Below are positions 23,280-35,488 of a stretch of 64,000 bases of DNA, piece after piece. Numbering within the stretch: the first letter of the stretch is position 1; each line of letters begins with the position of its first letter. Source of the stretch: Rhizobium leguminosarum bv. trifolii WSM1325 (lineage in GTDB: Bacteria > Pseudomonadota > Alphaproteobacteria > Rhizobiales > Rhizobiaceae); assembly GCA_000023185.1 (NCBI GenBank), contig CP001624.1, positions 372,001-436,000 on the forward strand. The letters run 5' to 3'. The notes beneath the pieces were generated by a model. It was given only the letters and a program-made list of their open reading frames with translations. It made no database searches and was not told where the DNA came from. Position numbers and translations under genes: made by a program.

Positions 23280-24002
23280 TTATCGGCCGATATCAGGCAG
23301 AACCCCTACAAGGATTCGACCATCGGTGAAGTACGGATCGCCGCCACCGTTGCGACCATCTTTCGTCGCACCGACGCCTGCGCGCTCGTAGGTCATGGAG
23401 ATCTGCCCAGCGCCCTTGAGGTCGCCGATCACCAGCTCGCGCTCGGCGTCGAGATCGGGTCCGATATGGTGGGTGATCTGCCCGGTGTCGTGGCTGACGC
23501 CGACGCCGCGGTCGAAGCTGGCGGAGCCCAGCCACAGCGGCTGGCCGTCGGCGCCGACCGTCGCCGTTTGCCAGAGACGTATGTGGTGGCGCTCGTCCGC
23601 GCTTCGCCCGACAGGCTTTTCGAATGCCAGATCCTGTTTCCGACCGTCGAAGAACAGCGGACTGACGGGCGCATCGAGATCCGGACGATCGAGCACCACG
23701 CTCAGGCCGATTTCGACCGAAGAGAGTAATGTTACTCTGTCGGCCGGATCCCAGCCCGAGGCGGCGAAGGCCCTGATCACCTGCTGCTTCGGGCCGACGA
23801 GCCCGACGTTGATTGGATCGCCCGGAATGTCGTCGCCGGTGGTCGTGACCATCCGGCTGAAATCGGCAACCGTACTCCGGTCACGGAAGATCCAAAGCTC
23901 CGGCATCACCAGGTAGCAGACGAGCAGATAGGCCAGGAGGACGGCGGCGAGAACGCCCGCAGCCGACCTCCATCCGCCTCGGCTGTTTCTCCCCAGCCTC
24001 AT
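23280..24002 (-). CDS. LssY_C-domain membrane protein
   Basis: 240 residues: one N-terminal transmembrane helix (AAGVLAAVLLAYLLVCYLVM, about 14-33) and a large external domain with the LssY_C pattern (PINVGLVGPKQQVIRAFAAS, GWDPADR, WLGSASFDRGVGVSH, THHIGPDLDAER). The last is a family signature. The role of LssY_C is not settled; it occurs fused to PAP2 phosphatases or alone. Ends just before the gene at 24023, forming a minus-strand run with OmpA-like and Cys-rich genes. Between 23045 and 23279 I see no gene. Confidence 0.82.
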   Translation of the reverse strand: MRLGRNSRGGWRSAAGVLAAVLLAYLLVCYLVMPELWIFRDRSTVADFSRMVTTTGDDIPGDPINVGLVGPKQQVIRAFAASGWDPADRVTLLSSVEIGLSVVLDRPDLDAPVSPLFFDGRKQDLAFEKPVGRSADERHHIRLWQTATVGADGQPLWLGSASFDRGVGVSHDTGQITHHIGPDLDAERELVIGDLKGAGQISMTYERAGVGATKDGRNGGGDPYFTDGRILVGVLPDIGR

Positions 24003-24022: not shown

Positions 24023-24709
24023 TCAGTAGCAGGGCGGATACGGATAGTAGCCGCACGGGGGGTGATAGTAGTATGGCGCGGAGGCCGCCGCGGCACCGAT
24101 GGCCGCGCCCGTCGCGACCGCGGCGCCGTAGCGGGCCGCCGGGTGCGCATACCAGCCGCCATGGAAGCCGACCGCACCCACGCCAACCACGCCGACGCGC
24201 CCCATTCCGGCGCGCGCCACGAACATGTCGATGAAAAGCGAAGCCGGGCCATTGGCCTTTGCGAGTTCGCCCTCGAGAACCTGGACGTCAAAGGTCAGCG
24301 TGCCGCCGTCCAGCTTCGGCTTGGTCAGGACCACGACCGCATCTTCGACAGCCGTCCCATCGCTGCTCATGACAGAGATCGTCGCGTTCGGCGGGTCGAC
24401 GGCGAAGCTGTCCTTGCCCTCGTCCCATTCCTTGATGAACTCGGTCGTGAGCACATGTCCGGCCGATCGTACTGGACGGTCGGCGAACACGATGGAGTTC
24501 GGAGTGACCCCCGTCATCGTCAGCTTGCCGTCGGCCAGCGTCGCCCCGCCGGAATTGAGGACGGCGAGCGACGGCACCATCTTCCCGGCCGCGGTCGCTC
24601 CAATGGTCTTGGAAGCGGGTGCCGTGATCGCGTCTTCGGCCAACGCCGCTCCTGCGCACGACACCAGGCAGGCTACGGCGACTGTGCCGATCCGAATATG
24701 GCGTTTCAT
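24023..24709 (-). CDS. Secreted protein with Gly/Tyr/Pro-rich C-terminus
   Basis: 228 residues with a signal peptide (MKRHIRIGTVAVACLVSCAGAALAE region), a beta-rich domain (PNSIVFADRPVRSAGHV, then DPPNATISVMSSDG) and a tail rich in Gly, Ala, Tyr and Pro ending YYYHPPCGYYPYPPCY. The tail hints at surface association. CAGGAGGATTCTCC is a strong ribosome site. Not recognised beyond this. Confidence 0.8.
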   Translation of the reverse strand: MKRHIRIGTVAVACLVSCAGAALAEDAITAPASKTIGATAAGKMVPSLAVLNSGGATLADGKLTMTGVTPNSIVFADRPVRSAGHVLTTEFIKEWDEGKDSFAVDPPNATISVMSSDGTAVEDAVVVLTKPKLDGGTLTFDVQVLEGELAKANGPASLFIDMFVARAGMGRVGVVGVGAVGFHGGWYAHPAARYGAAVATGAAIGAAAASAPYYYHPPCGYYPYPPCY

Positions 24710-24727: not shown

Positions 24728-25297
24728 CTACTTCACGAGACCGAGGTTGACGAGCTGGACGCGTCGATTGTCGGCGGCCTGCGGATTCGACGGATCTCCG
24801 GGCCACTCCTCGCCGACGCCGATCGCGAACAGACGATCCGGGGCGATGGAAAATGTCGTCGACAGCGCCTCCGTGATCGCGTTCGCCCGCTTCTGGCTGA
24901 GGTCCAGATTGTGCTTGGCGTCGCCCGTCGAGCTCGTGTGTCCGACGACAAGGAACTTGTAGCGCCGCAGGTTCGGATGATGCAGGGCGTCGGCGATCAT
25001 GCCGACGGTGCGATAGGATTTCGGTTCGATGGCGATGGAGTCGTTCTCGAAGTCGATCTCGACGATGAGCTGCGACAGCTTCGAAAGCTTCTGCCAGTCG
25101 GGAAGCCCGGCGAGGCCCTTGCCTGCACTCGCCGCCGCTTCTTCCATAAGCAATGCGAGGTCAATGGCCGGAGCTCCGCCCTGCAATCTGTCGAGCGTGC
25201 GCACCACCTGCGGGCCGCTCAGTTCCTGGGCGAATGGATGGCCGGGTGCCAGCAGCAGCCCGGCGGCGAACATCGTTGCGAGTCGAAAGCTCTTCAT
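24728..25297 (-). CDS. OmpA-family periplasmic/outer-membrane protein
   Basis: 189 residues: signal peptide to about residue 25, then an OmpA-like peptidoglycan-binding domain with VVGHTSSTGDAKHNLDLSQKR and RLFAIGVGEEWP. The D and R that contact diaminopimelate correspond to the D/R in DLSQKRA. Probably tethers an envelope complex to the cell wall. Start at 25297 rather than 25318 on signal-peptide grounds. Confidence 0.86.
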   Translation of the reverse strand: MKSFRLATMFAAGLLLAPGHPFAQELSGPQVVRTLDRLQGGAPAIDLALLMEEAAASAGKGLAGLPDWQKLSKLSQLIVEIDFENDSIAIEPKSYRTVGMIADALHHPNLRRYKFLVVGHTSSTGDAKHNLDLSQKRANAITEALSTTFSIAPDRLFAIGVGEEWPGDPSNPQAADNRRVQLVNLGLVK

Positions 25298-25321: not shown

Positions 25322-25744
25322 TCACCGCCAGCCGGCGTCGGTGATGGCCTGGCCGCACTGGCCTTCGTTCACGCGCGTCGCCTTGTTCAGGCAGGAAAGA
25401 ATGTTGCCCTCCCCCACCACGCCGCTGCAGAACTGCGCGACATAGTGCTTGCAGATTGTGGTGAACGACGACTGGGCGGCAAGGCGCTGCCCGATGGACG
25501 AGGTGACGCTCGCCAGTGTCGCCGTACAGGTCGGCGAAACTTTCGCGGCATGGGTCTCGAGGCAGTTCTGGATACGGCCGCTTCCAAGGTTCAGGCCCTT
25601 GCAGAACTTCTTGATGTCGGATCCGCAGTCGTTGGCGAGCGTGCTCACCGCGTCGGCGAAGCTGATGGTGTCGGCACGGGCCGCACCGCTGAGCGCCAGG
25701 AACGCGACCAGCGCCCCTCCTAACAGTCTGGTTCTGGTCGACAT
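25322..25744 (-). CDS. Secreted cysteine-rich repeat protein
   Basis: 140 residues, signal peptide, then paired-cysteine repeats of the GLG1/Cys-rich-FGFR type: DCGSDIKKFCKGL, NCLETHAAKVSPTC, CKHYVAQFCSG, LSCLNKA and a final QC. Such proteins are periplasmic and disulfide-bonded. The GATGGGGGAA before ATG 25744 is a good ribosome site. First gene of a four-gene minus-strand unit with the motif at 25825 about 80 bp upstream. Confidence 0.85.
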   Translation of the reverse strand: MSTRTRLLGGALVAFLALSGAARADTISFADAVSTLANDCGSDIKKFCKGLNLGSGRIQNCLETHAAKVSPTCTATLASVTSSIGQRLAAQSSFTTICKHYVAQFCSGVVGEGNILSCLNKATRVNEGQCGQAITDAGWR

Positions 25745-25824: not shown

Positions 25825-25842
25825 GTATGTTACGGTTACACG
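25825..25842 (-). promoter_or_regulatory. Copy 1 of the envelope-cluster motif
   Basis: On the coding (minus) strand this reads TGTAACCGTAACATAC, matching the GTAACATAC core shared by five sites in this cluster. About 80 bp upstream of the Cys-rich gene. Confidence 0.6.
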
Positions 25843-25892
25843 GACCGTAGGAGACGGCTTTCAACGTGTCGCCGCAACGACGGATGTGGAAG

Positions 25893-26373
25893 CTACCGGC
25901 CCCGTTCTGGCGGTCCATCCTCTACGGCCTGTCCGAAGCGAGCCAGTTCGAGCGAGTAGCAGAATAGTCCGAACAGCGTCGCCGCCACATACACGCTCTT
26001 CACGCACGCCTGAGCGAATGGCGGTAAGGCGTCGAGTTCCGGCAGATGCCTGAAGAAGATGGCCGAGAAGAGCGCGCCGCCGAAGAAGAAGCTGACCCGC
26101 TGGCGAAGAAGAGCAGATGCGCCACGAAGACGTTGTGAAACGGCGACGTGACCGGCACCCATTTCAACCGTATCCAGTAGAAGCAATGGAGCAGCGCGGC
26201 GCTGACAACAACCCCACCTGGTCCGAGAGAGCGAGCGTCCGCCGTTCGCCGAGGTGGGTGACCAAGCCATGAAAGATGGGGAACACGATCCAGAACAGGG
26301 TCAGGGCCGCGGCGGTCTGAGCGGCGAGGAGACCCGCGTATATCCATGGTGCCGATGGCGCTGATCTTGACAT
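25893..26373 (-). pseudogene. Frameshifted small multi-pass membrane protein gene
   Basis: Three reverse frames join into a continuous hydrophobic protein: SAPSAPWIYAGLLAAQTAAA with LTLFWIVFPIFHGL, then VVSAALLHCFYWIRLKWVP and FHNVFVAHLLFF, then SFFFGGALFSAIFFRHLPEL and ACVKSVYVAATLFGLFCYS. Four membrane helices and about 160 residues are implied, with frameshifts near 26220 and 26085. Family not recognised. Two frameshifts make decay likelier than sequence error. Confidence 0.5.
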
Positions 26374-26533
26374 CAAGCTCCGTCTTCCCGCAGTCCTGTT
26401 GATCCTTGCTATGCGCACGAGCCAGAAGGCTCAAGGCGGCGCGGCTGATGCCGGCGGCGCACTCATGTTTTCCGGCCGCGCCGATCCGACACACCAGTCG
26501 GACCGGCATTGGAGTTCATGGCGTATTTGAGCG

Positions 26534-28046
26534 TCACTCGACAGGTTCGAACTCGCCTGGCTTCCAGGTCTTGTCGAACCATGGCTCCAAAGGCCCGTAG
26601 AGGCGAAGAAGGACGTTCCAACCCTTGCCCGGCACTGTCTGGACCCAGTTGGCCTCATGGCCTTTCGGCGCCGTCGGACCGAACCAGACGTCAACCGACG
26701 AGTCCGCGTTGATCACGATGTCCTTCTTGTCGCTGCCGATGCTGGGGAATTGCCGGTCCGTCTGCAACATCGAACGCGTCTGGTTGTCATACGCCACGAA
26801 CGACCAGAATTCCTTTGCGGGAATGTTTGGCGGCATGTGAATCTTATAAGTCTTGCCGCCGTCGAACGGCTTGCCGTCCTTGTCGGTCGTTGCGCCGGCA
26901 TATTGCGAACCAATGCCGACGCGCTTTATCGCCATGGCCGGCGTGATGCCCGTCGCGTAGTAGTGGAACAGGACGCGGGCATCCAGATAGCGAACGCCAG
27001 GCTGCAGCAGAAACTCGTAGCTCCCGCCGACAAAGCCGGTGAACCAGGCACTGTTCGGATAATAATAGGCATCCTTCATGCGCGTCTTGAAGGTGATGGT
27101 GCGCGCCGTCGCCGACGGCCACGGCTTCGGTGAGGATCTTCTTCATCCGCGCATCCGGCGCGAAGGGCTTGCCCTTTACGATGCCGATGGACGCGAGCTG
27201 TCCCAGCACTTCCGGATGATAGGCTTCGTTCGGCTCGTACTGGACGATGTCGTTTACTTCCTCGTAGAAATGGAAATTATTGGCATGGATCGTGTTGAAC
27301 TCCTTGCCGGAGACGTTGACGATCTTCATCGGCGGCGGATCGCCGGCCTCCGAAAGCGGATAGACCTTGGCGAATTTCCTGGTGTTTTCGACGGCCGTCG
27401 TCGTGCTGCCGTTTTCGAGGAAGCCGCGCCAGAAGAACAGGTTCCCATAGGTCGAGGACCGCAATACGTCATAACCTTCGGGAACCACGCCCTCGTAGCC
27501 CGGCGGCAACAGCAGGTATTTTCCACCCTTGCCCTTGTCCGGACCGGCATTGCCGACATCGCCGACATATTCGAACCAGTGGTTATCGATCATGCCCAGG
27601 ATGTTGGGCGGCGTCTCGATGACCAGCGGACCGGCCTTGGTATCCAGCCACATGAGATTGTAGATGCTTTCGGTGTTCCCGGTCAGGAACAGCGAATGCG
27701 AATCCATGAGATTTTCGAAGATCAGGATGGTCTGATTGTTGTCGGCGCCCTGGCCGGCCAGTCCAACCCGTAGGGCTTCGACGGAGGCACCCGGCATGGC
27801 GTTGAGAAAAGCGTCGACGCCGCGCATGAAATCGAGGTTGTCATAGATCTTTTCCGAAGTGGCGTCGTCCGGAAAGCCGTCGAAGAAATTCAGCTTGCCA
27901 ATCCTGGTGTCGACGCTCTCCGGCGTGACGATCGAATCGGGTATCGGCGTCGCCATCTTGGTTTTCGGTGCTTCGGCGTACGCCGCCCCCCAGCCCATCA
28001 GCAGCACCGCGGCAGTAGCGTAAAACTGTCTCGTCGCGCGTTTCAT
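26534..28046 (-). pseudogene. DUF1254/DUF1214 secreted protein, split by one frameshift
   Basis: Starts at ATG 28046 after AAGGAGAGTGAA with a signal peptide, continues through the DUF1254 domain (YDNLDFMRGVDAFLNAMPG) and breaks near 27101 inside a GCGC run; the downstream frame carries DUF1214 (YYYPNSAWFTGFVGG, AKEFWSFVAYDNQTRSML, EANWVQTVPGKGWNVLLRLY) to 26534. Adding two bases (GCGCGC for GCGC) restores one reading frame of about 504 residues, so this is either a recent mutation or a sequence error. A second intact DUF1254 gene is at 34046. Confidence 0.85.
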
Positions 28047-28221
28047 TTCACTCTCCTTGTCGACCGCCCGTCGGCCGTTCTTCATGAGGTCGCCAATCTG
28101 TGTGCATTCGGGCGCGCGCGGCATGACGCGCAGCGAACTCGACCAGGCGATGAAGCCGTTCCGGCAGCGATTGCCGGAAATGATTGCCGCCGCAGTGATA
28201 GCCGATCACGGGGGAAACACC

Positions 28222-28239
28222 CGTATGTTACCGTATCCG
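28222..28239 (-). promoter_or_regulatory. Copy 2 of the envelope-cluster motif
   Basis: Coding strand of the DUF1254 gene reads GGATACGGTAACATACG about 175 bp before its ATG, in the same orientation relative to the gene as the other copies. Confidence 0.55.
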
Positions 28240-28253
28240 CTTGTTCCCCCGGA

Positions 28254-28592
28254 CTATTGGCGTGACCACTTCTGCGACTCGCAGACGACCTTCATCACAC
28301 AGCCTTTGAGGGTAACCGTGTCGCCGGAGACGCTGATGGTGCCGTCGTAGGTCTTGTTCGCGTCGGGGTCGGTGATCCTGCCGGAATAGCTGCCGCCGTT
28401 GCCTTCGAACGCGCCGATCTTCTTGCCGGTATGCTTGCCGCTCTTCAGCGTGATGCAGAAACCGCCGCCGCACGGCTCGATCGCGGCGGTGTCTCCGAGC
28501 GTCGTCTTCCAGTTTCCGACGATCGGCTCGGCTGCGCTCGCCAGTCCGGTCGACATCAGCAGCGCTGCGACGGAGACTAGAATGGGCTTCAT
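28254..28592 (-). CDS. DUF2147-like secreted small protein
   Basis: 112 residues, signal peptide ending ASAAEP, then a lipocalin-like small beta barrel pattern: IVGNWKTTL, CGGGFCITLKSGKHTGKKIG, TYDGTISVSGDTVTLKGCV. Four cysteines. This is the DUF2147 arrangement (W-x-T near the start). Function unknown. Start at 28592 chosen on the signal peptide; the motif at 28677 is 85 bp upstream. Confidence 0.8.
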   Translation of the reverse strand: MKPILVSVAALLMSTGLASAAEPIVGNWKTTLGDTAAIEPCGGGFCITLKSGKHTGKKIGAFEGNGGSYSGRITDPDANKTYDGTISVSGDTVTLKGCVMKVVCESQKWSRQ

Positions 28593-28676
28593 GGTAAGGT
28601 CCTCGCATGGCTGGCCCGCCGCCGGGCCGGTGACCGAATGGACCACACATGCGCTGCCGACCGCAAGAAACTCGCG

Positions 28677-28695
28677 GTGTGTTACTGTAACCTAC
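28677..28695. promoter_or_regulatory. Copy 3 of the envelope-cluster motif, between divergent genes
   Basis: Contains GTTACTGTAAC, an inverted repeat. The minus strand reads GTTACAGTAACACAC toward the DUF2147 gene; the plus-strand gene at 28782 is about 85 bp the other way, so it may serve both. Confidence 0.6.
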
Positions 28696-28781
28696 ATGGT
28701 GTCGGCCGGGTTCTGTGCCATCTTCACGGCGACTACGCGGATGTGCGGGAGCCTTCGCCTCGCCTGGGCGGGAGCGATGCA

Positions 28782-29048
28782 ATGCAATATGACACGGAGT
28801 TCGCCAAGCGCAGGTTTCCCGAGCAGGCGCTGGAGATCGAAGCGCTCGCCTCCCGCAATGAAAGCTTCCGGGAACTGTGCCACGACTTTTCCATCGCGGA
28901 CCAGCTCGTGCGGGACTGGGAGTCGTCGACGGCCCCGGGGCAACATGAACGTTACGCCGAGGCGCTCGAACTCATGGATTGGCTCGGCAAGGAAATTCAC
29001 ACCATGCTGGATCTTGCCAAGGTCGTGCCATTCCCTGCAGCCCGATGA
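28782..29048 (+). CDS. Small cytoplasmic helical protein (88 aa)
   Basis: 88 residues, all-helical (FAKRRFPEQALEIEALASRN, ESFRELCHDFSIADQLVRDW), with no signal or membrane segment. It resembles short regulatory or DUF proteins of alphaproteobacteria without a clear match. GGGAG lies eight bases before ATG 28782; the frame upstream is non-coding. Confidence 0.65.
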   Translation: MQYDTEFAKRRFPEQALEIEALASRNESFRELCHDFSIADQLVRDWESSTAPGQHERYAEALELMDWLGKEIHTMLDLAKVVPFPAAR

Positions 29049-29099
29049 AGTCGCGATCTCCCCGTCGTGGTGGCACGGCGGCTACAGGAAAGGAACAAC

Positions 29100-30116
29100 A
29101 TGCCTCGACTGATGGCGATCATCTTGATCTTCGCGGTCGCCCTGATCGTGGCGGCTTTGACAGCCTGGGGCTCCTTGGCGTTCTGGTATCGCCTGCCCCT
29201 GCCCGATGCCGGCCGGGCGATCGGCGCCTGCGTCTTCCTCGCCTTCGGTCTCCTCACAGTAGCGGCGCTTGCCAACCGGCTGCGCAGGAGAGCCATCCTT
29301 TCATTTGCGGTCGCCTTCGCGCTGGTTCTCTTCTGGTGGAGCTCGATCAAGCCGGAAGCCAACGCCGCATGGGCTCCTGACGTCGCCCGCCAGGTCACGG
29401 GTCGCATCGACGGAAATTCGCTGACCTTGACCGATGTCCGGGACTTCGAGTGGCGAAGCAACTCCGACTTTACCGAGCGCTGGACGACGCGAACCTACGA
29501 TGTGAGCAAGGTGAGGACGGTCGACCTGTTCATGTCATACTGGGCGGGGCCGAAGATCGCGCATGTCATCTTCAGCTTCGGCTTCGAAGGCGGCGAACAG
29601 CTCGCCTGGTCGATCGAGGTGCGCCACAAGGTCGGCGGCGGGTTTTCTCCCCTTGCCGACCTCTTCAAGAACGACCCGCTGGTGGTTGTTGCCGCGGACG
29701 AACGCGACGTCGTCGGCGTCCGTTCCAACGTGCGTGGCGAGGACGTCCAGATCTACCGGCTGAGAGCCAGTCCCGAGCAGGCGCGCAACCTGCTGCTCGA
29801 GTACGTCGCCGAGGCCAACGCGCTCGCCCGGACGCCGCGGTTCTACAACTCGATCACGACGAACTGCACGACAACCGTCGCCAAGCTGATGCGGGTCGCT
29901 GGAGACAAGGTACCGTTCGACTGGCGACTGATCGTCAATGGTTATCTTCCCGACTACGCCTATGACCGGGGAGCCGTCGACACCTCGATGCCGCTCGACC
30001 GCTTGCGGGAGATTGCCAAGATCGATGTGCGGGCGCGGGCGGATGGTTTGTCGCCCGACTTCTCGAAGGCGATCCGTCTCGGCGTGCCCTTCCCGGTCGT
30101 CGTCGCTGGGCCGTAG
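29100..30116 (+). CDS. DUF4105 membrane protein
   Basis: 338 residues: three N-terminal transmembrane helices (about 5-25, 35-55, 62-82) and an exported DUF4105 domain with WTTRTYDVSKVRTVDLFMSY, the conserved NCTTTVAKLM cysteine motif and WRLIVNGYLPDYAYD. DUF4105 proteins are predicted thiol-type peptidase-fold enzymes in the envelope (family inference; Cys in NCTT is the likely catalytic residue). ACAGGAAAGGAACAAC precedes the start. Ends in a copy of the cluster motif. Confidence 0.85.
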   Translation: MPRLMAIILIFAVALIVAALTAWGSLAFWYRLPLPDAGRAIGACVFLAFGLLTVAALANRLRRRAILSFAVAFALVLFWWSSIKPEANAAWAPDVARQVTGRIDGNSLTLTDVRDFEWRSNSDFTERWTTRTYDVSKVRTVDLFMSYWAGPKIAHVIFSFGFEGGEQLAWSIEVRHKVGGGFSPLADLFKNDPLVVVAADERDVVGVRSNVRGEDVQIYRLRASPEQARNLLLEYVAEANALARTPRFYNSITTNCTTTVAKLMRVAGDKVPFDWRLIVNGYLPDYAYDRGAVDTSMPLDRLREIAKIDVRARADGLSPDFSKAIRLGVPFPVVVAGP

Positions 30117-30132
30117 CGTACAGTAACATACG
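30113..30132 (+). promoter_or_regulatory. Copy 4 of the envelope-cluster motif
   Basis: GTAGCGTACAGTAACATACG, overlapping the stop of the DUF4105 gene and 73 bp upstream of the lipoprotein gene at 30205. Confidence 0.65.
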
Positions 30133-30204
30133 ACGGGATACGCACGGGTTGAGGCATGGTCCGTCCTGTCAGGATGTAGCCGGAATGCGGATGGGGGACT
30201 GGGC

Positions 30205-31494
30205 TTGTTTCGTTTGATGACTGCTGGTCCTATCCGGCGACTTCTTCCATGCCTCGCGCTGGTCGTGCTCGCGGGCTGCGGCGGACATCCGAAGAACGTG
30301 CTGTTCCCCGTTGCGGACACCGTGCCGGATACCAGTCGCGTCGACATGCTTGTCGCGACCACGCGTGCCCGATCGACTGTTTCCGGCGAGATGTTCACGG
30401 GCGAGCGCGCCCGCACGCCGTCCTTCGCACAGATGAGAGTTTCGCTGCCCAAGGTCCGCAACGAGGGCGACGTCGCCTGGCCCAAGAGGCTGCCTTCAAA
30501 TCCGAAGACCGACTTCGCCACGCTGAAGGCCGACGCGCTTAGTCTCGAAGCGGCGAAAGGCTGGCTGAACGCCTCGGTCAGAAGGAACCGCGACCACAGC
30601 GTCCTGGTCTTCATCCACGGCTTCAACAACCGCTTCGAGGACAGTGTCTACCGCTTCGCTCAGATCGTCCACGATTCCAATGTCCGCAGCACGCCGGTCC
30701 TTGTGACCTGGCCATCGCGCGGCAGCCTGCTCGCCTATGGTTATGACCGCGAGAGCACCAACTACACGCGCAACGCGCTCGAGACCCTGTTTCAGTATCT
30801 CGCCAAAGACGGCACCGTGAAGGAAGTCAACGTGCTGGCCCACTCGATGGGCAACTGGCTGGCGCTGGAAGCGCTCCGGCAGATGGCGATCCGCAACGGC
30901 GGTCTCCCGGCAAAGTTCAAGAACGTCATGCTGGCCGCTCCGGACGTCGACGTGGACGTCTTCCGGTCGCAGATCGAGGATATGGGCGACCCCCATCCGC
31001 AATTCACGCTTTTCGTCTCGCGCGACGACAAGGCGCTTGCCTTCTCGCGGCGGGTCTGGGGCAACATCCCGCGCCTCGGTTCGATCGATCCGGAAACCGC
31101 GCCGTACAAGACCGAACTCGCCGACTACAAGGTATCGGTGATCGATCTGACCAAGATCAAGGTCAGCGACGACCTCAATCACAGCAAGTTCGCGGAATCA
31201 CCGCAAGTCGTCCAGCTCATCGGCCAGCGGTTGTCCGAAGGGCAGACCCTGACCGACAGCCGGGTCGGCCTTGGCGACACGATCCTTGCGGGGACAACGA
31301 ACGTGGCGGCGGCGGCCGGAAGCGCCGCGGGCCTCGTACTGACCGCCCCGGTCGCGGTGCTCGACGCCGATACTCGCAGCAACTACGCCAATCATGTCGG
31401 CGGTCTGACCGGACAAGACGGCGGGACGCAGAAGATCGCGGTCAAGAACTGCGCGGCGACGCCGGCCGACCCGGCATGCCGGAAGCAGCGATAG
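30205..31494 (+). CDS. DUF900 alpha/beta-hydrolase lipoprotein
   Basis: 429 residues. A lipobox (LVVLAGC, C25) marks it as a lipoprotein. The DUF900 alpha/beta-hydrolase domain has VLVFIHGFNNRFEDSVYRFA (oxyanion region), nucleophile elbow AHSMGN (GxSxG variant with S) and a late APDVDVDVF acid. Substrate unknown. TTG 30205 lies seven bases after GGGGGA; the ATG at 30217 is a possible alternative but lacks a site. The C-terminal 100 residues are outside the hydrolase fold. Confidence 0.85.
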   Translation: MFRLMTAGPIRRLLPCLALVVLAGCGGHPKNVLFPVADTVPDTSRVDMLVATTRARSTVSGEMFTGERARTPSFAQMRVSLPKVRNEGDVAWPKRLPSNPKTDFATLKADALSLEAAKGWLNASVRRNRDHSVLVFIHGFNNRFEDSVYRFAQIVHDSNVRSTPVLVTWPSRGSLLAYGYDRESTNYTRNALETLFQYLAKDGTVKEVNVLAHSMGNWLALEALRQMAIRNGGLPAKFKNVMLAAPDVDVDVFRSQIEDMGDPHPQFTLFVSRDDKALAFSRRVWGNIPRLGSIDPETAPYKTELADYKVSVIDLTKIKVSDDLNHSKFAESPQVVQLIGQRLSEGQTLTDSRVGLGDTILAGTTNVAAAAGSAAGLVLTAPVAVLDADTRSNYANHVGGLTGQDGGTQKIAVKNCAATPADPACRKQR

Positions 31495-31723
31495 GGGTAG
31501 GCGCCCGCTTGAGTTCGCCACGCCTGGCACGCTCGTCTTCATATGCCCCTCCAGGCCCTTGTTCATCGCCATCATCGTCCGGTACCGGTTGCCCGGCCCA
31601 TACGTGATCCGCCTTGAAACTTCTTTCAGGTAGACGAAGGGCTATTGGGGGAATAGGTTGCATAAGGGGATTTGAATACAAGCTTTAACTGTCGCGCATA
31701 TGTGTGACGAGGGGGAGGATGCA
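31495..31723. other. Leader region of the TPR gene
   Basis: No gene is supportable. It does not contain a clear copy of the cluster motif, unlike the other upstream regions. An ATG at 31700 is in frame with the next gene but has no ribosome site. Confidence 0.4.
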
Positions 31724-33526
31724 ATGCAAACCTCGGTGCCTTTGCCCGACGATCGGGCCGAGCGCCCCTGTCCGACCCATGAGGAGGTCAGGGCGCAGCT
31801 TGAACGCATTCTGTCCAGCGGCGAGTTTCCGAGCGCCGGACGTGGCGCTGCCTTCTTGAAATATGTCACCGAGGAGACGCTTGCAGGCCGGGCACCGCGC
31901 CTCAAGGCGTATTCGATCGCCATCGAAGTGTTCAACCGAAGCGCGGGCTTCTCTCAGGAAGATCCCGTCGTTCGCATCGAGGCCGGACGTCTGCGCCGGG
32001 TCATCGAACGCTACTATCTCGTCGCAGGCCAGCGCGATCCGATCCGCATCGACATCCCCAAGGGCGGTTATGTGCCGACCTTTACGTGGAATGGGGCGCC
32101 GATGGAAGCGGCCGGGGATGCGCTGAAGGAAGACGTCTCCGAGCGCCGGGCTTTCGCGTGGCGGCGTCTCGCCTGGCCCGTGCTGGCCGTGCTCGTGGCA
32201 TTCGTCTTCGCGGGGCTTGGCTTTTACGCCGGCGTTCTGAAGGGGCCGGCACCCGGTCGTTCCGCCGAGCAACTTCCGGGCGAGCCGACCCTTGTGATCG
32301 CACCTTTCGCGGACCTCGGCGACGGCCCGCAGGCTGCACGTTATGCAGCCGGACTGACCGAGGAGCTTCTAACCGCCCTTCCCCGCTTCAAGGAGATTAC
32401 CGTCTTCGGCCGCGAGACATCAAAGGCACTGCCCCCAGGCGTCGAGGCGTCGCAGGTGCGCGAAGGACTTGGCGCCCGTTACCTGGTCGCAGGCGGGGTT
32501 CGCGTCGCGGGCGACAAGGTCCGTGTGACCGTGCGCCTCGTCGACACCTCCGACGGATCCATCCTGTGGTCGCAGGACTACGACGAGAACCTGGACACGC
32601 ACGAGCTCTTCTTCATTCAGGCGGATGTCGCAAGCAAGGTGGCGACGGCGATCGCTCAGCCTTACGGCATCATCGCGAAATCGATAGCGGCCAACCCGCC
32701 GCCGGACGATATGAGCGTCCATGACTGCACCCTGCGCTACTACGCATACCGCGAGGAGCTCAATCCGGAAAAGCATCAGGTCGCGCGCGACTGCCTGCAG
32801 AACGCCGTGGCGCTTTTCCCCGCCTACGCGACGGCTTGGTCGATGCTCTCGATCATCCAACTCGACGAGGGTCGGTTCGAGTTCAATCCGCAGAGTGACA
32901 AGGGTCCCGCGATGGAGCGCGCGCTCAGTTCGGCGCGGCGGGCAGTCTCGCTCGAGCCCGACAACACGCGCGCCCTGCAGGCGCTCATGACGGCCCTGTT
33001 CTTCAACAACGAGACGAAAGAGGCGTTCGATGTCGGCGAAGCGGCGCTCGCCGCCAACCCGAACGACACGGAGTTCCTGGGGGAGCTCGGAACGCGTGTC
33101 GCATTCTCGGGGCAATGGAAGCGCGGCGGCGAATTGCTGGATCGTGCGATCAAGCTCAATCCGGGCGGCTCTGGATATTACTTCGGGACGCGCGCCCTGA
33201 TCGCCTGCATGCTCGACGATCACGAGATGGCGGTGCGGCTGATCCGTAAAGCCGACCTGCAGAAATTTCCGCTCTTCCATGGCGTTGCGGCGGTCATCTA
33301 CTCCGAGGCCGGGCTGTTGGCAGAAGCGAAGCACGAGGGCGAGGTGTTTATGAAAATGCGCCCCGATTATCTGCCCAACATCGTGGCCGAGAATCGGAAG
33401 AGAAACCTGCCGCCGAAGGACAGCATGCGCATGATCGCAGCGCTACGACGCGCTGGACTGCCAGTGCCCAGCGCGACTGATATCGAAGCCGAATTCAGGG
33501 TCTCCGACGCCTCATATCGCCCGTGA
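31724..33526 (+). CDS. Membrane-anchored regulator-like protein with TolB/FlgO-type and TPR domains
   Basis: 600 residues. N-terminal domain (about 10-115) has the pattern of adenylate-cyclase-associated regulators of rhizobia (FLKYVTEETLAGRAPRLKAY, then EDPVVRIEAGRLRRVIERYY), one transmembrane helix (VLAVLVAFVFAGLGFY, about 157-176), an FlgO/TolB-N-type domain (TLVIAPFADLGDG, then RYLVAGGVRVAGDKVRVTVR, WSQDYDENLD) and C-terminal TPR-like repeats. It could be a sensor/transcription factor for the surrounding cluster, but no DNA-binding helix is certain. ATG 31724 follows GAGGGGGAGG. Confidence 0.75.
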   Translation: MQTSVPLPDDRAERPCPTHEEVRAQLERILSSGEFPSAGRGAAFLKYVTEETLAGRAPRLKAYSIAIEVFNRSAGFSQEDPVVRIEAGRLRRVIERYYLVAGQRDPIRIDIPKGGYVPTFTWNGAPMEAAGDALKEDVSERRAFAWRRLAWPVLAVLVAFVFAGLGFYAGVLKGPAPGRSAEQLPGEPTLVIAPFADLGDGPQAARYAAGLTEELLTALPRFKEITVFGRETSKALPPGVEASQVREGLGARYLVAGGVRVAGDKVRVTVRLVDTSDGSILWSQDYDENLDTHELFFIQADVASKVATAIAQPYGIIAKSIAANPPPDDMSVHDCTLRYYAYREELNPEKHQVARDCLQNAVALFPAYATAWSMLSIIQLDEGRFEFNPQSDKGPAMERALSSARRAVSLEPDNTRALQALMTALFFNNETKEAFDVGEAALAANPNDTEFLGELGTRVAFSGQWKRGGELLDRAIKLNPGGSGYYFGTRALIACMLDDHEMAVRLIRKADLQKFPLFHGVAAVIYSEAGLLAEAKHEGEVFMKMRPDYLPNIVAENRKRNLPPKDSMRMIAALRRAGLPVPSATDIEAEFRVSDASYRP

Positions 33527-33531
33527 AGGCT

Positions 33532-33551
33532 GTACGCTACAGTAACATACG
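33532..33551 (+). promoter_or_regulatory. Copy 5 of the envelope-cluster motif
   Basis: GTACGCTACAGTAACATACG, 87 bp upstream of the gene at 33638. It differs from copy 4 at only four positions. Confidence 0.65.
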
Positions 33552-33637: not shown

Positions 33638-34015
33638 ATGGCAAATGCCGCATCGACCCGCGCCCTGCCGGCGAAGAGGTCCCTGACGCTCGCCGTCGCC
33701 GCGGCCCTCGGCGTGGGGGCGCCGGTCTACGGCCAGGGTTCGTGCACCGATCTCGCCAAGAATCTGTCGAATCCCATCGCCTCCCTCATCAGAAAGCTGG
33801 TCAAGGTCAACGAACAGCCGATCAGCCTGACGGGCGAGCTTCGAAACTGGGCAGCGTCTCCAGACGACGGCCCCGAAGGGCACGGCGTCCAAGTCGGGCT
33901 GACCGTTCCTGTTTCCGAAGTAGGCGCCTACCTCCTCATGGTCAGGACTAGGTCGGCTCTGTTCGCTCGATGTCCGCGGCCGCATGACGCTACCCTGTCA
34001 CCTCAGCGTGCCTGA
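33638..34015 (+). pseudogene. Internally deleted outer-membrane transporter-like gene
   Basis: 125 residues: a signal peptide, then DLAKNLSNPIASLI, the usual start of transporter/meta-pathway-like beta-barrel proteins of ~290 residues, joined directly to their C-terminal region (EQPISLTGELRNWAASPDDG, GPEGHGVQVGLT). The central ~150 residues are missing, so it is an in-frame deletion remnant even though the frame is open. GGAGAGAGA precedes the start and motif copy 5 lies upstream. Confidence 0.55.
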
Positions 34016-34045: not shown

Positions 34046-35488
34046 ATGCTTACGAAACGCGATCTGCTCCGCTCCGCTGCGATGGCCGCACTCGTTGCCG
34101 CAACGGCCAAGTCTACCCCGGTGCTTGCGCAGAACAAAGAAGAATGGCCCAGCCTGCTGGAGGCGAAGGATATCGCCGAGGAAGGCTTCATCTACGGCCT
34201 GCCGCTCGTGATGAACTATGCGGTCATGAACGAGTTCGCCGTGGACAGGAACTCCGGACAGTTCAAGGCGCCGTTTAACGACATCAACAACATGCATCAG
34301 GTCGCCAGCCCGGCGGACACGGCAATCATCACGCCGAACAGTGACACGCCCTACTCGATCCTCTGGCTGGACTTGCGTGCTGAACCGATGGTGATCTCGG
34401 TGCCGACGGTCGAAAAGGAACGCTACTACTCGGTCCAGCTTATCGACGGCAACACCTACAATTTCGGTTATATTGGCTCGCGCACCACGGGAACCGAGCC
34501 GGGTTCCTATCTCGTCGTCGGACCCGACTGGAAAGGCGCGAAGCCCGACGGCGTCAAGCAGGTCTTCACCTCGAGCACCCCGTTCGTATTCGCCAACTTC
34601 CGGACACAGCTTATCGACGCCGACGATATGGCGAATGTGGAAAAGGTGCAGACCGGCTATAAGGCGCAACCGCTTTCGGCCTTCCTCAAGCAACCCGCCC
34701 CGCCCGCCGCACCGACGATCGAGTTCCTTCCCGCCACCACCGCCGGCATCAAGAAAAACTTCTTCGAATATCTCGACGTGGCTCTGCAATTCGTCCCGGA
34801 GACGTCAAGGGACAAGGTCATCCGTGCGAAGCTTGCAAGGATCGGCATCGGGCCCGGAAAGACCCTCGAATTCAAGGATCTGCCGCTCGAGCATAAGGCC
34901 GAGTTGTTGGTCGGCATGAAGCAGGGTGACGACAAGATCGACAAGTGGCTGGCCAGCGGAAACAAGCCCATCAACGGCTGGAACGTCAGCTCGCTGCTTG
35001 GTGACGAGGCCTTCTACAACGGCGATTGGTTGCTGCGCTCAGGCGCTGCCAAGGCAGGCCTCTATGGCAACGATGCAGCAGAGGCCATGTACCCCTTCAC
35101 CCGAACAGATGCGAGCGGAAAGCCGCTCGACGGCAGCAAGCACAAGTACACGATTACCTTCCCGCCGGGCCAGTTGCCGCCAGTGCATTCGTTCTGGTCA
35201 GTGACCATGTACGACGGCAAGAGCCAGTTGCTGGTCAAGAACCCGATCAATCGCTACCTCGTCAACTCTCCGATGTTGCCGGGAATGAAGAAGGATGCGG
35301 ACGGTTCGCTGACGCTGCACATCCAGAAGGACAGCCCCGGAGCGGACAAGGAAGCCAATTGGCTTCCGGCCCCGGACGGCACGATCTATCTCGTGATGCG
35401 CCTGTACTGGCCAAAGACGGAGGCGCCTTCGATCCTGCCTGCGGGGAAAGGTACGTGGCAGCCGCCCGGCGTGAAGCGGGTCTCGTAG
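34046..35488 (+). CDS. DUF1254/DUF1214 secreted protein
   Basis: 480 residues with a Tat-like N-terminus (MLTKRDLLRSAAMAALVAAT), then the DUF1254 domain (EGFIYGLPLVMNYAVMNEFA, ADTAIITPNSDTPYS, ERYYSVQLIDGNTYNFGYIG) and DUF1214 (LPPVHSFWSVTMYDGKSQLL, DKEANWLPAPDGTIYLVMRL). Full length. The TPNSDTPYS segment is the most constant part of the family. Function unknown though some members are linked to carbohydrate or lipid metabolism. Paralogue of the split gene at 26534. Confidence 0.92.
   Translation: MLTKRDLLRSAAMAALVAATAKSTPVLAQNKEEWPSLLEAKDIAEEGFIYGLPLVMNYAVMNEFAVDRNSGQFKAPFNDINNMHQVASPADTAIITPNSDTPYSILWLDLRAEPMVISVPTVEKERYYSVQLIDGNTYNFGYIGSRTTGTEPGSYLVVGPDWKGAKPDGVKQVFTSSTPFVFANFRTQLIDADDMANVEKVQTGYKAQPLSAFLKQPAPPAAPTIEFLPATTAGIKKNFFEYLDVALQFVPETSRDKVIRAKLARIGIGPGKTLEFKDLPLEHKAELLVGMKQGDDKIDKWLASGNKPINGWNVSSLLGDEAFYNGDWLLRSGAAKAGLYGNDAAEAMYPFTRTDASGKPLDGSKHKYTITFPPGQLPPVHSFWSVTMYDGKSQLLVKNPINRYLVNSPMLPGMKKDADGSLTLHIQKDSPGADKEANWLPAPDGTIYLVMRLYWPKTEAPSILPAGKGTWQPPGVKRVS

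Follow-up and report, generated by a model that had tools for sequence, protein, structure and literature searches.

Putative GTA-N3-TAC operators and a candidate CadC/ToxR-like regulator family in Rhizobium leguminosarum bv. trifolii WSM1325

In pho boxes, tandem half-sites lie about one helical turn apart and adjoin the -35 region, and PhoB is an activator that touches RNA polymerase. CadC has an AT-rich consensus (TTAxxxxT) and activates through the recruitment of RNA polymerase (PMC5430869). Here we describe a motif that occurs five times before genes for exported and envelope proteins in a window of 64,000 nucleotides (the whole stretch of DNA analysed) from plasmid pR132502 of Rhizobium leguminosarum bv. 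trifolii WSM1325 (NC_012858.1; record position = window position + 372000). The five motifs are probably operators of the product of the gene at 31724-33526, which would be a CadC/ToxR-like one-component activator from a large paralogous family. What is new here is that a large family of mislabelled proteins is recognised as having a predicted DNA-binding domain of OmpR type, together with the operator variants that accompany it; neither the family nor the operator is described among the matches listed in the literature searched, a coverage that lies largely outside subscription journals.

The core GTAACAYAC was found at 25825(-), 28223(-), 28677(-), 30123(+) and 33542(+), whereas shuffling gave an expectation of 0.08 in the window and none of 100 shuffles reached five copies. 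The five copies reported in a preliminary description of this DNA are thus genuine, and so is their fixed orientation, with 5/5 cores reading in the same direction as the gene that follows. The spacing given there, 73-90 bp with one case of 175 bp, also holds, the core lying 80 bases from the start codon of the Cys-rich protein gene (start 25744), 176 from that of DUF1254, 84 from that of DUF2147, 87 from that of the gene at 33638, and 73 (start 30205) or 85 (RefSeq start 30217) from that of the DUF900 gene. Alignment of the five copies with relatives identified this core as the strong half-site within a 19-bp element, GTA-N3-TAC-N-GTA-N3-TAC. The repeat originally written as TAcGnTACaGTAACATACg is better described as two GTA-N3-TAC half-sites whose starts are 10 bp apart. 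The gene-proximal half-site is GTAACATAC, or GTAACACAC before DUF2147, and the distal half is variable: the 19-mer is perfect at 30113 and 33532, has one mismatch at 28677, and at 25825 and 28223 its left half is degenerate.

In orthologous loci from other rhizobia (n=7), four of the five sites recur in 7/7 and the Cys-rich site in 3/7. The cores of three sites are invariant at 9/9 positions while the sequence downstream has diverged, with 22/71 positions kept at the Cys-rich site (5 aligned copies, from the window and 4 copies in 3 loci), 28/71 at the DUF900 site and 26/71 at 33532 (8 aligned copies each). The upstream flanks are better kept (29/40 for DUF900, 21/40 for the 33532 site and 16/40 for the Cys-rich site). 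The core of the DUF1254 operator, present in 7/7 loci, is invariant at 7/9 positions, and its copy in L037 is one base off GTAACAYAC. Before DUF2147 the downstream flank is itself conserved (52/71), so that this site says little. L039, an eighth and more distant locus (65% relative), lacks the site altogether. On the WSM1325 chromosome, a perfect dyad, GTATGTTAC-C-GTAACATAC, stands directly before a paralogue, 59% identical, of the TPR protein encoded at 31724-33526, with more sites on the divergent flank and ahead of a second DUF900-like gene. The exact sequence GTAACAYACG was found nine times in the whole WSM1325 genome; 3 copies are in the window and 2 at a second regulator locus (C1, near 2399427-2401715), and the other 4 are lone cores inside reading frames and probably due to chance.

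The preliminary description named the TPR protein at 31724 as one candidate regulator, and it is the best one. A confident model of its N-terminus aligned best with OmpR/PhoB-type DNA-binding domains, and on this model the N-domain is an OmpR-type winged-helix DNA-binding fold. A profile comparison used the 12/20 OmpR-type loci that passed the filter. The N-terminal sequence gave nothing above any Pfam or NCBIfam threshold, a sequence search of the PDB with the N-domain gave a best E value of 1.1, with no relative below 1, and Foldseek gave no significant match; we did not count these two structure-database searches against the fold. Hydropathy peaks at 2.39 over residues 153-171, within a single predicted helix (150-171), and the Arg-rich N side of this helix suggests that the DNA-binding part is inside and the rest outside. 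The elements in the C-terminal part of the model follow the CadC-type order of alpha/beta domain and TPR repeats. Structures of the CadC periplasmic domain match this part with E values of 3.6e-6 to 9.6e-6 over 318-340 columns, at low TM scores of 0.25-0.45, and many TPR proteins score equally well or better. The annotation of the protein as an adenylate cyclase was rejected, as no cyclase catalytic domain was found in Pfam and NCBIfam scans of the window protein. Cyclase-annotated records match the C-terminal half of one family member, which is the likely origin of the name. Membership of HilA/EilA (NF009037) was also rejected (19.7 bits, cut-off 589).

Searches with the N-domain returned 1865 protein matches at E <= 0.001; where those listed bear a name, it is adenylate cyclase, TolB-like, TPR or hypothetical protein. 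Among 41 related genomes, 28 carry the family, with 76 matches in total and up to 6 per genome. The window protein has one N-domain, while 26 of 28 proteins inspected (the best-scoring 25 and three more) have two in tandem. These tandem winged-helix proteins (P0001-P0022, P0024, P0034, P0035, P0040; L158:6452-8755; L180:6791-9178), for example one of 757 aa in S. meliloti, are possibly covalent dimers. In one further member (L082:7729-9495) the N-domain is fused to apparent PAS and GGDEF (diguanylate cyclase) parts, read from the translation, and not to TPR, and at G008:C98:63032-63344 (L189) a family gene is apparently split into two frames of 98 and 316 aa.

The 19-mer accompanies this family. 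We examined 66 stretches, 64 of them with a family gene, and found it 38 times without and 13 times with one mismatch, counts that include orthologues and overlaps and are not independent; with 60 permuted patterns as controls there was no perfect match, and a mean of 1.1 (maximum 6) with at most one mismatch. In whole genomes it occurs at 39 places, spread over 16/41 genomes that all belong to the genus and all carry the family; a reversed control pattern has 10 places across the same 41 genomes, of which 3 fall in the genus. Within the genus, 16/20 genomes with the family have it versus 0/5 without (p 0.0024). For 22 of the 39 places the distance to a family gene is at most 10 kb, in zones that by a rough estimate make up about 0.7% of the bases searched. 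According to our own codon-usage script, which supplied the gene calls outside annotated records, 36/38 listed 19-mers are intergenic, and one of the other two touches a gene truncated where its contig stops; intergenic counts are approximate, since the script miscalled the OmpA/Cys-rich unit of the window by choosing an antisense frame. Most family genes have no site before themselves, and the shared architecture emerged from the comparison of a few strong ones. When the upstream regions of 73 family genes were searched for dyads in general, the best-dyad scores were no different from those of random windows in the same loci (9/9 in 5/73 versus 20/730 control windows). A one-mismatch site does lie directly before the regulator gene at L102 (G028), in another family of the order. 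These results give strong support to the earlier suggestion that the motif marks a dedicated regulon under a transcription factor of its own, since the site architecture tracks the TPR protein family across the genomes of the genus.

The operator also varies with the predicted recognition helix. Paralogues with the helix DPIVRIE.SRLR, in place of DPVVRIEAGRLRR, go with an asymmetric site, TTTAC-N-GTAACGTAC, which we found first in seven loci of six genomes; one discovery locus, L077, holds a non-SRLR paralogue, and its genome also holds SRLR ones. This second operator has 46 places, against 1 for a control pattern, in 10/41 genomes; the same 10, and no others, have the SRLR helix when the helices of all 76 family hits are read. 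With the six discovery genomes left out, helix and operator still match exactly in 4/35 genomes (chance 1.9e-5), for a helix class that was defined after the loci had been inspected. By our gene calls all 46 sites are intergenic, and 33 are within 160 bp of a start on the same strand versus 6 on the other strand. The consensus extends to TTTACnGTAACGTACTTcC, with T, T, C and C in 39, 38, 25 and 32 of 39 sites. G008 has one SRLR gene, on a site-free contig, and 11 sites on other contigs, so that control there would be in trans. The genes that follow the second operator, some of them named only by resemblance to scanned proteins, encode DUF1254/DUF1214 (several), DUF900 and DUF3300 proteins, sulfatases, an alkyl sulfatase, formylglycine-generating-enzyme (FGE)-like proteins, a Cys-rich protein, MscS and solute-binding proteins, families that are partly shared with the window set. 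The first operator precedes genes for DUF900, DUF3141 and FGE-sulfatase proteins and, at larger distance, an aminotransferase, an exchanger and others.

A TATnnT-like hexamer lies 23 bp past the last half-site in 11/36 promoters, compared with 0-3 at other offsets, a peak unmatched in 1000 rotations and still present after strict de-duplication (6/24, p 0.001); at the second operator a -10-like hexamer peaks at 22-23 bp downstream. A third half-site was found in 9/32 de-duplicated sites, 21 bp further on in 8 and 22 bp in 1, and nowhere else in the scanned flanks. The eight at 21 bp apparently come from promoters of a single 155-aa gene family, and the one at 22 bp precedes an aminotransferase-like gene; the -10 and phasing counts are partly dependent, and DUF3141 orthologues add to the -10 peak. 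Half-sites at 0, 10 and 31 bp would fall on roughly one face of the DNA and stop at the expected start of a -35 box. A hexamer 22-23 bp downstream would place the protein beside the -35 region, which favours an activator over a repressor. The best-defined operator, with three half-sites and a clear -10, belongs to a family of genes for 154-156 aa proteins without a Pfam match (L066:7932-8399, L109:10581-11045, L135:3543-4013, L130:4010-4477), its centre lying 84-90 bp before the start. In a separate cluster of proteins of ~750 aa (L118, L122, L124, L131, L133), of which the two scanned are DUF3141, the site centre lies 165-172 bp before the start.

Binding, activation, membrane topology and signal are what we infer from the computed sites, conservation, domain model, co-occurrence and spacing. 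A cytoplasmic OmpR/PhoB-type winged helix would bind GTA-N3-TAC half-sites one turn apart and sometimes a third half-site two turns further on. Seated directly upstream of the -35 region, the regulator would recruit RNA polymerase to weak promoters that serve exported and envelope proteins. Its periplasmic alpha/beta and TPR part may sense the state of the envelope or a ligand; the export of the products and the presumed periplasmic location of the TPR part point towards an envelope-state signal. Paralogues in the Rhizobiaceae would combine different recognition helices with different operator variants. It is rather likely that the Rhizobiaceae hold an expanded CadC-like branch of parallel, insulated paralogue circuits, in which the GTA..TAC frame is shared, other bases follow the helix, some single chains carry two winged helices, and an envelope set (DUF1254, DUF900, DUF3300, sulfatase/FGE, Cys-rich) is passed between paralogue operators across species.

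Several observations weigh against this proposal. The window regulator gene has no site before its own start, and in S. meliloti and R. gallicum the loci with tandem domains lack the 19-mer and have a single half-site before the regulator gene. The perfect 19-mer is found in 0/16 genomes of other families of the order, though 8 of these have the regulator family, and within the genus G002, G003, G009 and G021 have family genes without it; G003 and G021 have the second operator in its place. Across 111 genomes of the taxonomic family, the raw 19-mer is no more frequent with the regulator family (11/41) than without it (15/70, p 0.64). Of the 30 places involved, 17 contain GTACCGTAC in a half, and the reversed control has 16 places. 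The correlation is hidden by a GTACCGTAC-containing repeat that occurs about once per genome; once these places are removed, by a post hoc cut, 13 places in 10 genomes remain (8/41 versus 2/70, p 0.005). The exceptions are G068 and G131, which have the pattern without the family. The repeat itself, of the type GTACCGTAC-N-GTACGGTAC, occurs across several genera of the family and is unrelated to the regulators. The two exceptions (G068:C61:5640 and G131:C23:49325) are perfect palindromes, GTAATGTAC-N-GTACATTAC, in genomes with no member of the regulator family at E <= 1e-20, and are perhaps the operator of another factor.

These palindromes in family-free genomes, together with 17/39 sites more than 10 kb from any family gene hit and a 19-mer that is often a dyad, as is typical of soluble dimeric repressors, are what would be expected if an unlinked factor of TetR, GntR or LuxR type bound the sites and the TPR family were a target or neighbour. 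We regard this as improbable. The operator variant shifts with the recognition helix of the TPR family, to the point of an exact match in 10/41 genomes, and this family has its own DNA-binding-like fold. It is also the commonest cluster within 5 kb of the sites (15 loci, most of them fetched for holding the regulator), whereas Pfam scans of representative proteins from ten other recurrent clusters revealed no regulator, three having no hit at all, so that the earlier idea of a TetR-type gene gained no support from the clusters scanned near the sites. The same ten representatives include no sigma factor. The preliminary description also suggested a sigma factor. A promoter for one of the extracytoplasmic function (ECF) type would account for an orientation that does not vary and a distance to the start codon that varies little, and GTAAC resembles some ECF -35 boxes. 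ECF promoters have a -35/-10 spacer of about 16-18 bp, and a hexamer at 22-23 bp is wide for such a pair. Two or three phased like half-sites, inverted or direct, upstream of a separate -10-like hexamer likewise speak against a promoter element, and we consider this reading very improbable.

Whether a TPR protein bound at these sites would activate or repress is a separate matter; the preliminary description proposed a dimeric repressor or activator. The perfect dyad of the chromosomal paralogue (L028), centred 52 bp before its own start codon, has a layout that is common in autorepression, and a convincing -10 was found in the window only at the DUF1254 promoter (TATCAC, 22 bp), the other four having weak boxes or no clear one at the expected place, which counts against our proposal and fits a repressor. 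Weak -10 boxes also fit, and do not prove, dependence on an activator. The hexamer places the half-sites beside the -35 region and not over the start site, and CadC, the nearest in layout, is an activator (PMC5430869); repression is accordingly unlikely and activation by the TPR protein favoured. That the motif is due to chance, or belongs to a dispersed repeat of the kind of a repetitive extragenic palindromic (REP) element, is extremely improbable: four of the nine exact short-core matches in the genome do look random, but the shuffles never reach five, the cores outlast diverged downstream flanks in orthologues, and both operators are overwhelmingly intergenic (36/38 and 46/46).

Table 1. 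Putative operators, the candidate regulator and the genes behind the sites (window positions).
Feature	Position	Strand	Remarks
Operator, Cys-rich/OmpA/LssY_C unit	25825..25843	-	core GTAACATAC 25825-25833, then TTCC
Operator, first DUF1254 gene	28223..28241	-	left half degenerate; -10-like TATCAC 22 bp past core
Operator, DUF2147	28677..28695	-	reverse face also precedes gene at 28782(+); in 7/7 orthologous loci
Operator, DUF900 alpha/beta hydrolase lipoprotein	30113..30131	+	perfect 19-mer; overlaps last codons of DUF4105 gene
Operator, truncated exported-protein gene and second DUF1254 gene	33532..33550	+	perfect architecture
Proposed regulator, 600 aa, RLEG_RS28695 / WP_012763443.1	31724..33526	+	annotated adenylate cyclase
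Predicted OmpR/PhoB-like winged-helix DNA-binding domain, residues ~20-123	31781..32092	+	recognition helix DPVVRIEAGRLRRVIERYY
Predicted single transmembrane helix, residues ~149-171	32168..32236	+	Arg-rich N side
Presumed periplasmic alpha/beta domain (three-stranded meander), then TPR repeats	32291..33514	+	CadC-periplasmic-like
Cys-rich repeat protein	25322..25744	-	then OmpA 24728-25297, 24023-24709, LssY_C 23280-24002
DUF1254 gene, frame-broken in WSM1325	26534..28046	-	missing from PLSDB gene table of record
DUF2147 protein	28254..28592	-	
DUF900 alpha/beta hydrolase lipoprotein	30217..31494	+	
Short exported protein, 125 aa, apparently truncated	33638..34015	+	276 aa at equivalent place in L036, L157
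DUF1254/DUF1214 protein	34046..35488	+	

Among the genes behind the window sites (Table 1), the frame-broken DUF1254 gene has an intact 1518-bp homologue annotated in L157, and the genes for the short exported protein and the DUF1254/DUF1214 protein possibly form a common transcription unit, given the 30-bp gap between them. If our proposal is true, 1865 N-domain proteins would be membrane-bound regulators of transcription whose operator is readable, orphan DUF1254, DUF2147, DUF900, DUF3300 and DUF3141 genes would fall in envelope regulons, and the paralogues would offer a natural helix-operator series for studying the insulation of winged-helix paralogues.

Among described systems, the PhoB/OmpR proteins have the DNA-binding fold predicted for the window regulator, which has no receiver domain and has a predicted membrane anchor. 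Its putative half-sites are also arranged like those of pho boxes. The likeness to class III adenylate/guanylate cyclases with TPR tails is confined to the C-terminal half of a family member. HilA and EilA belong to other hosts and have other targets; their NCBIfam model matches residues 255-495 of the regulator, in the alpha/beta-TPR part, weakly (E 2.4e-4) and far under its cut-off, and does not match the DNA-binding part. The CadC/ToxR-like proteins share the layout of winged helix, one membrane helix and periplasmic alpha/beta and TPR part. The family described here differs from CadC in a winged helix that falls below every Pfam and NCBIfam threshold tested, in having up to 6 hits per genome, some with tandem winged helices, and in recognising, it would seem, GTA-N3-TAC in place of the AT-rich TTAxxxxT of CadC (PMC5430869). 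The regulator thus looks like one that works as CadC does, sharing its layout, yet with a sequence below every family threshold tested.

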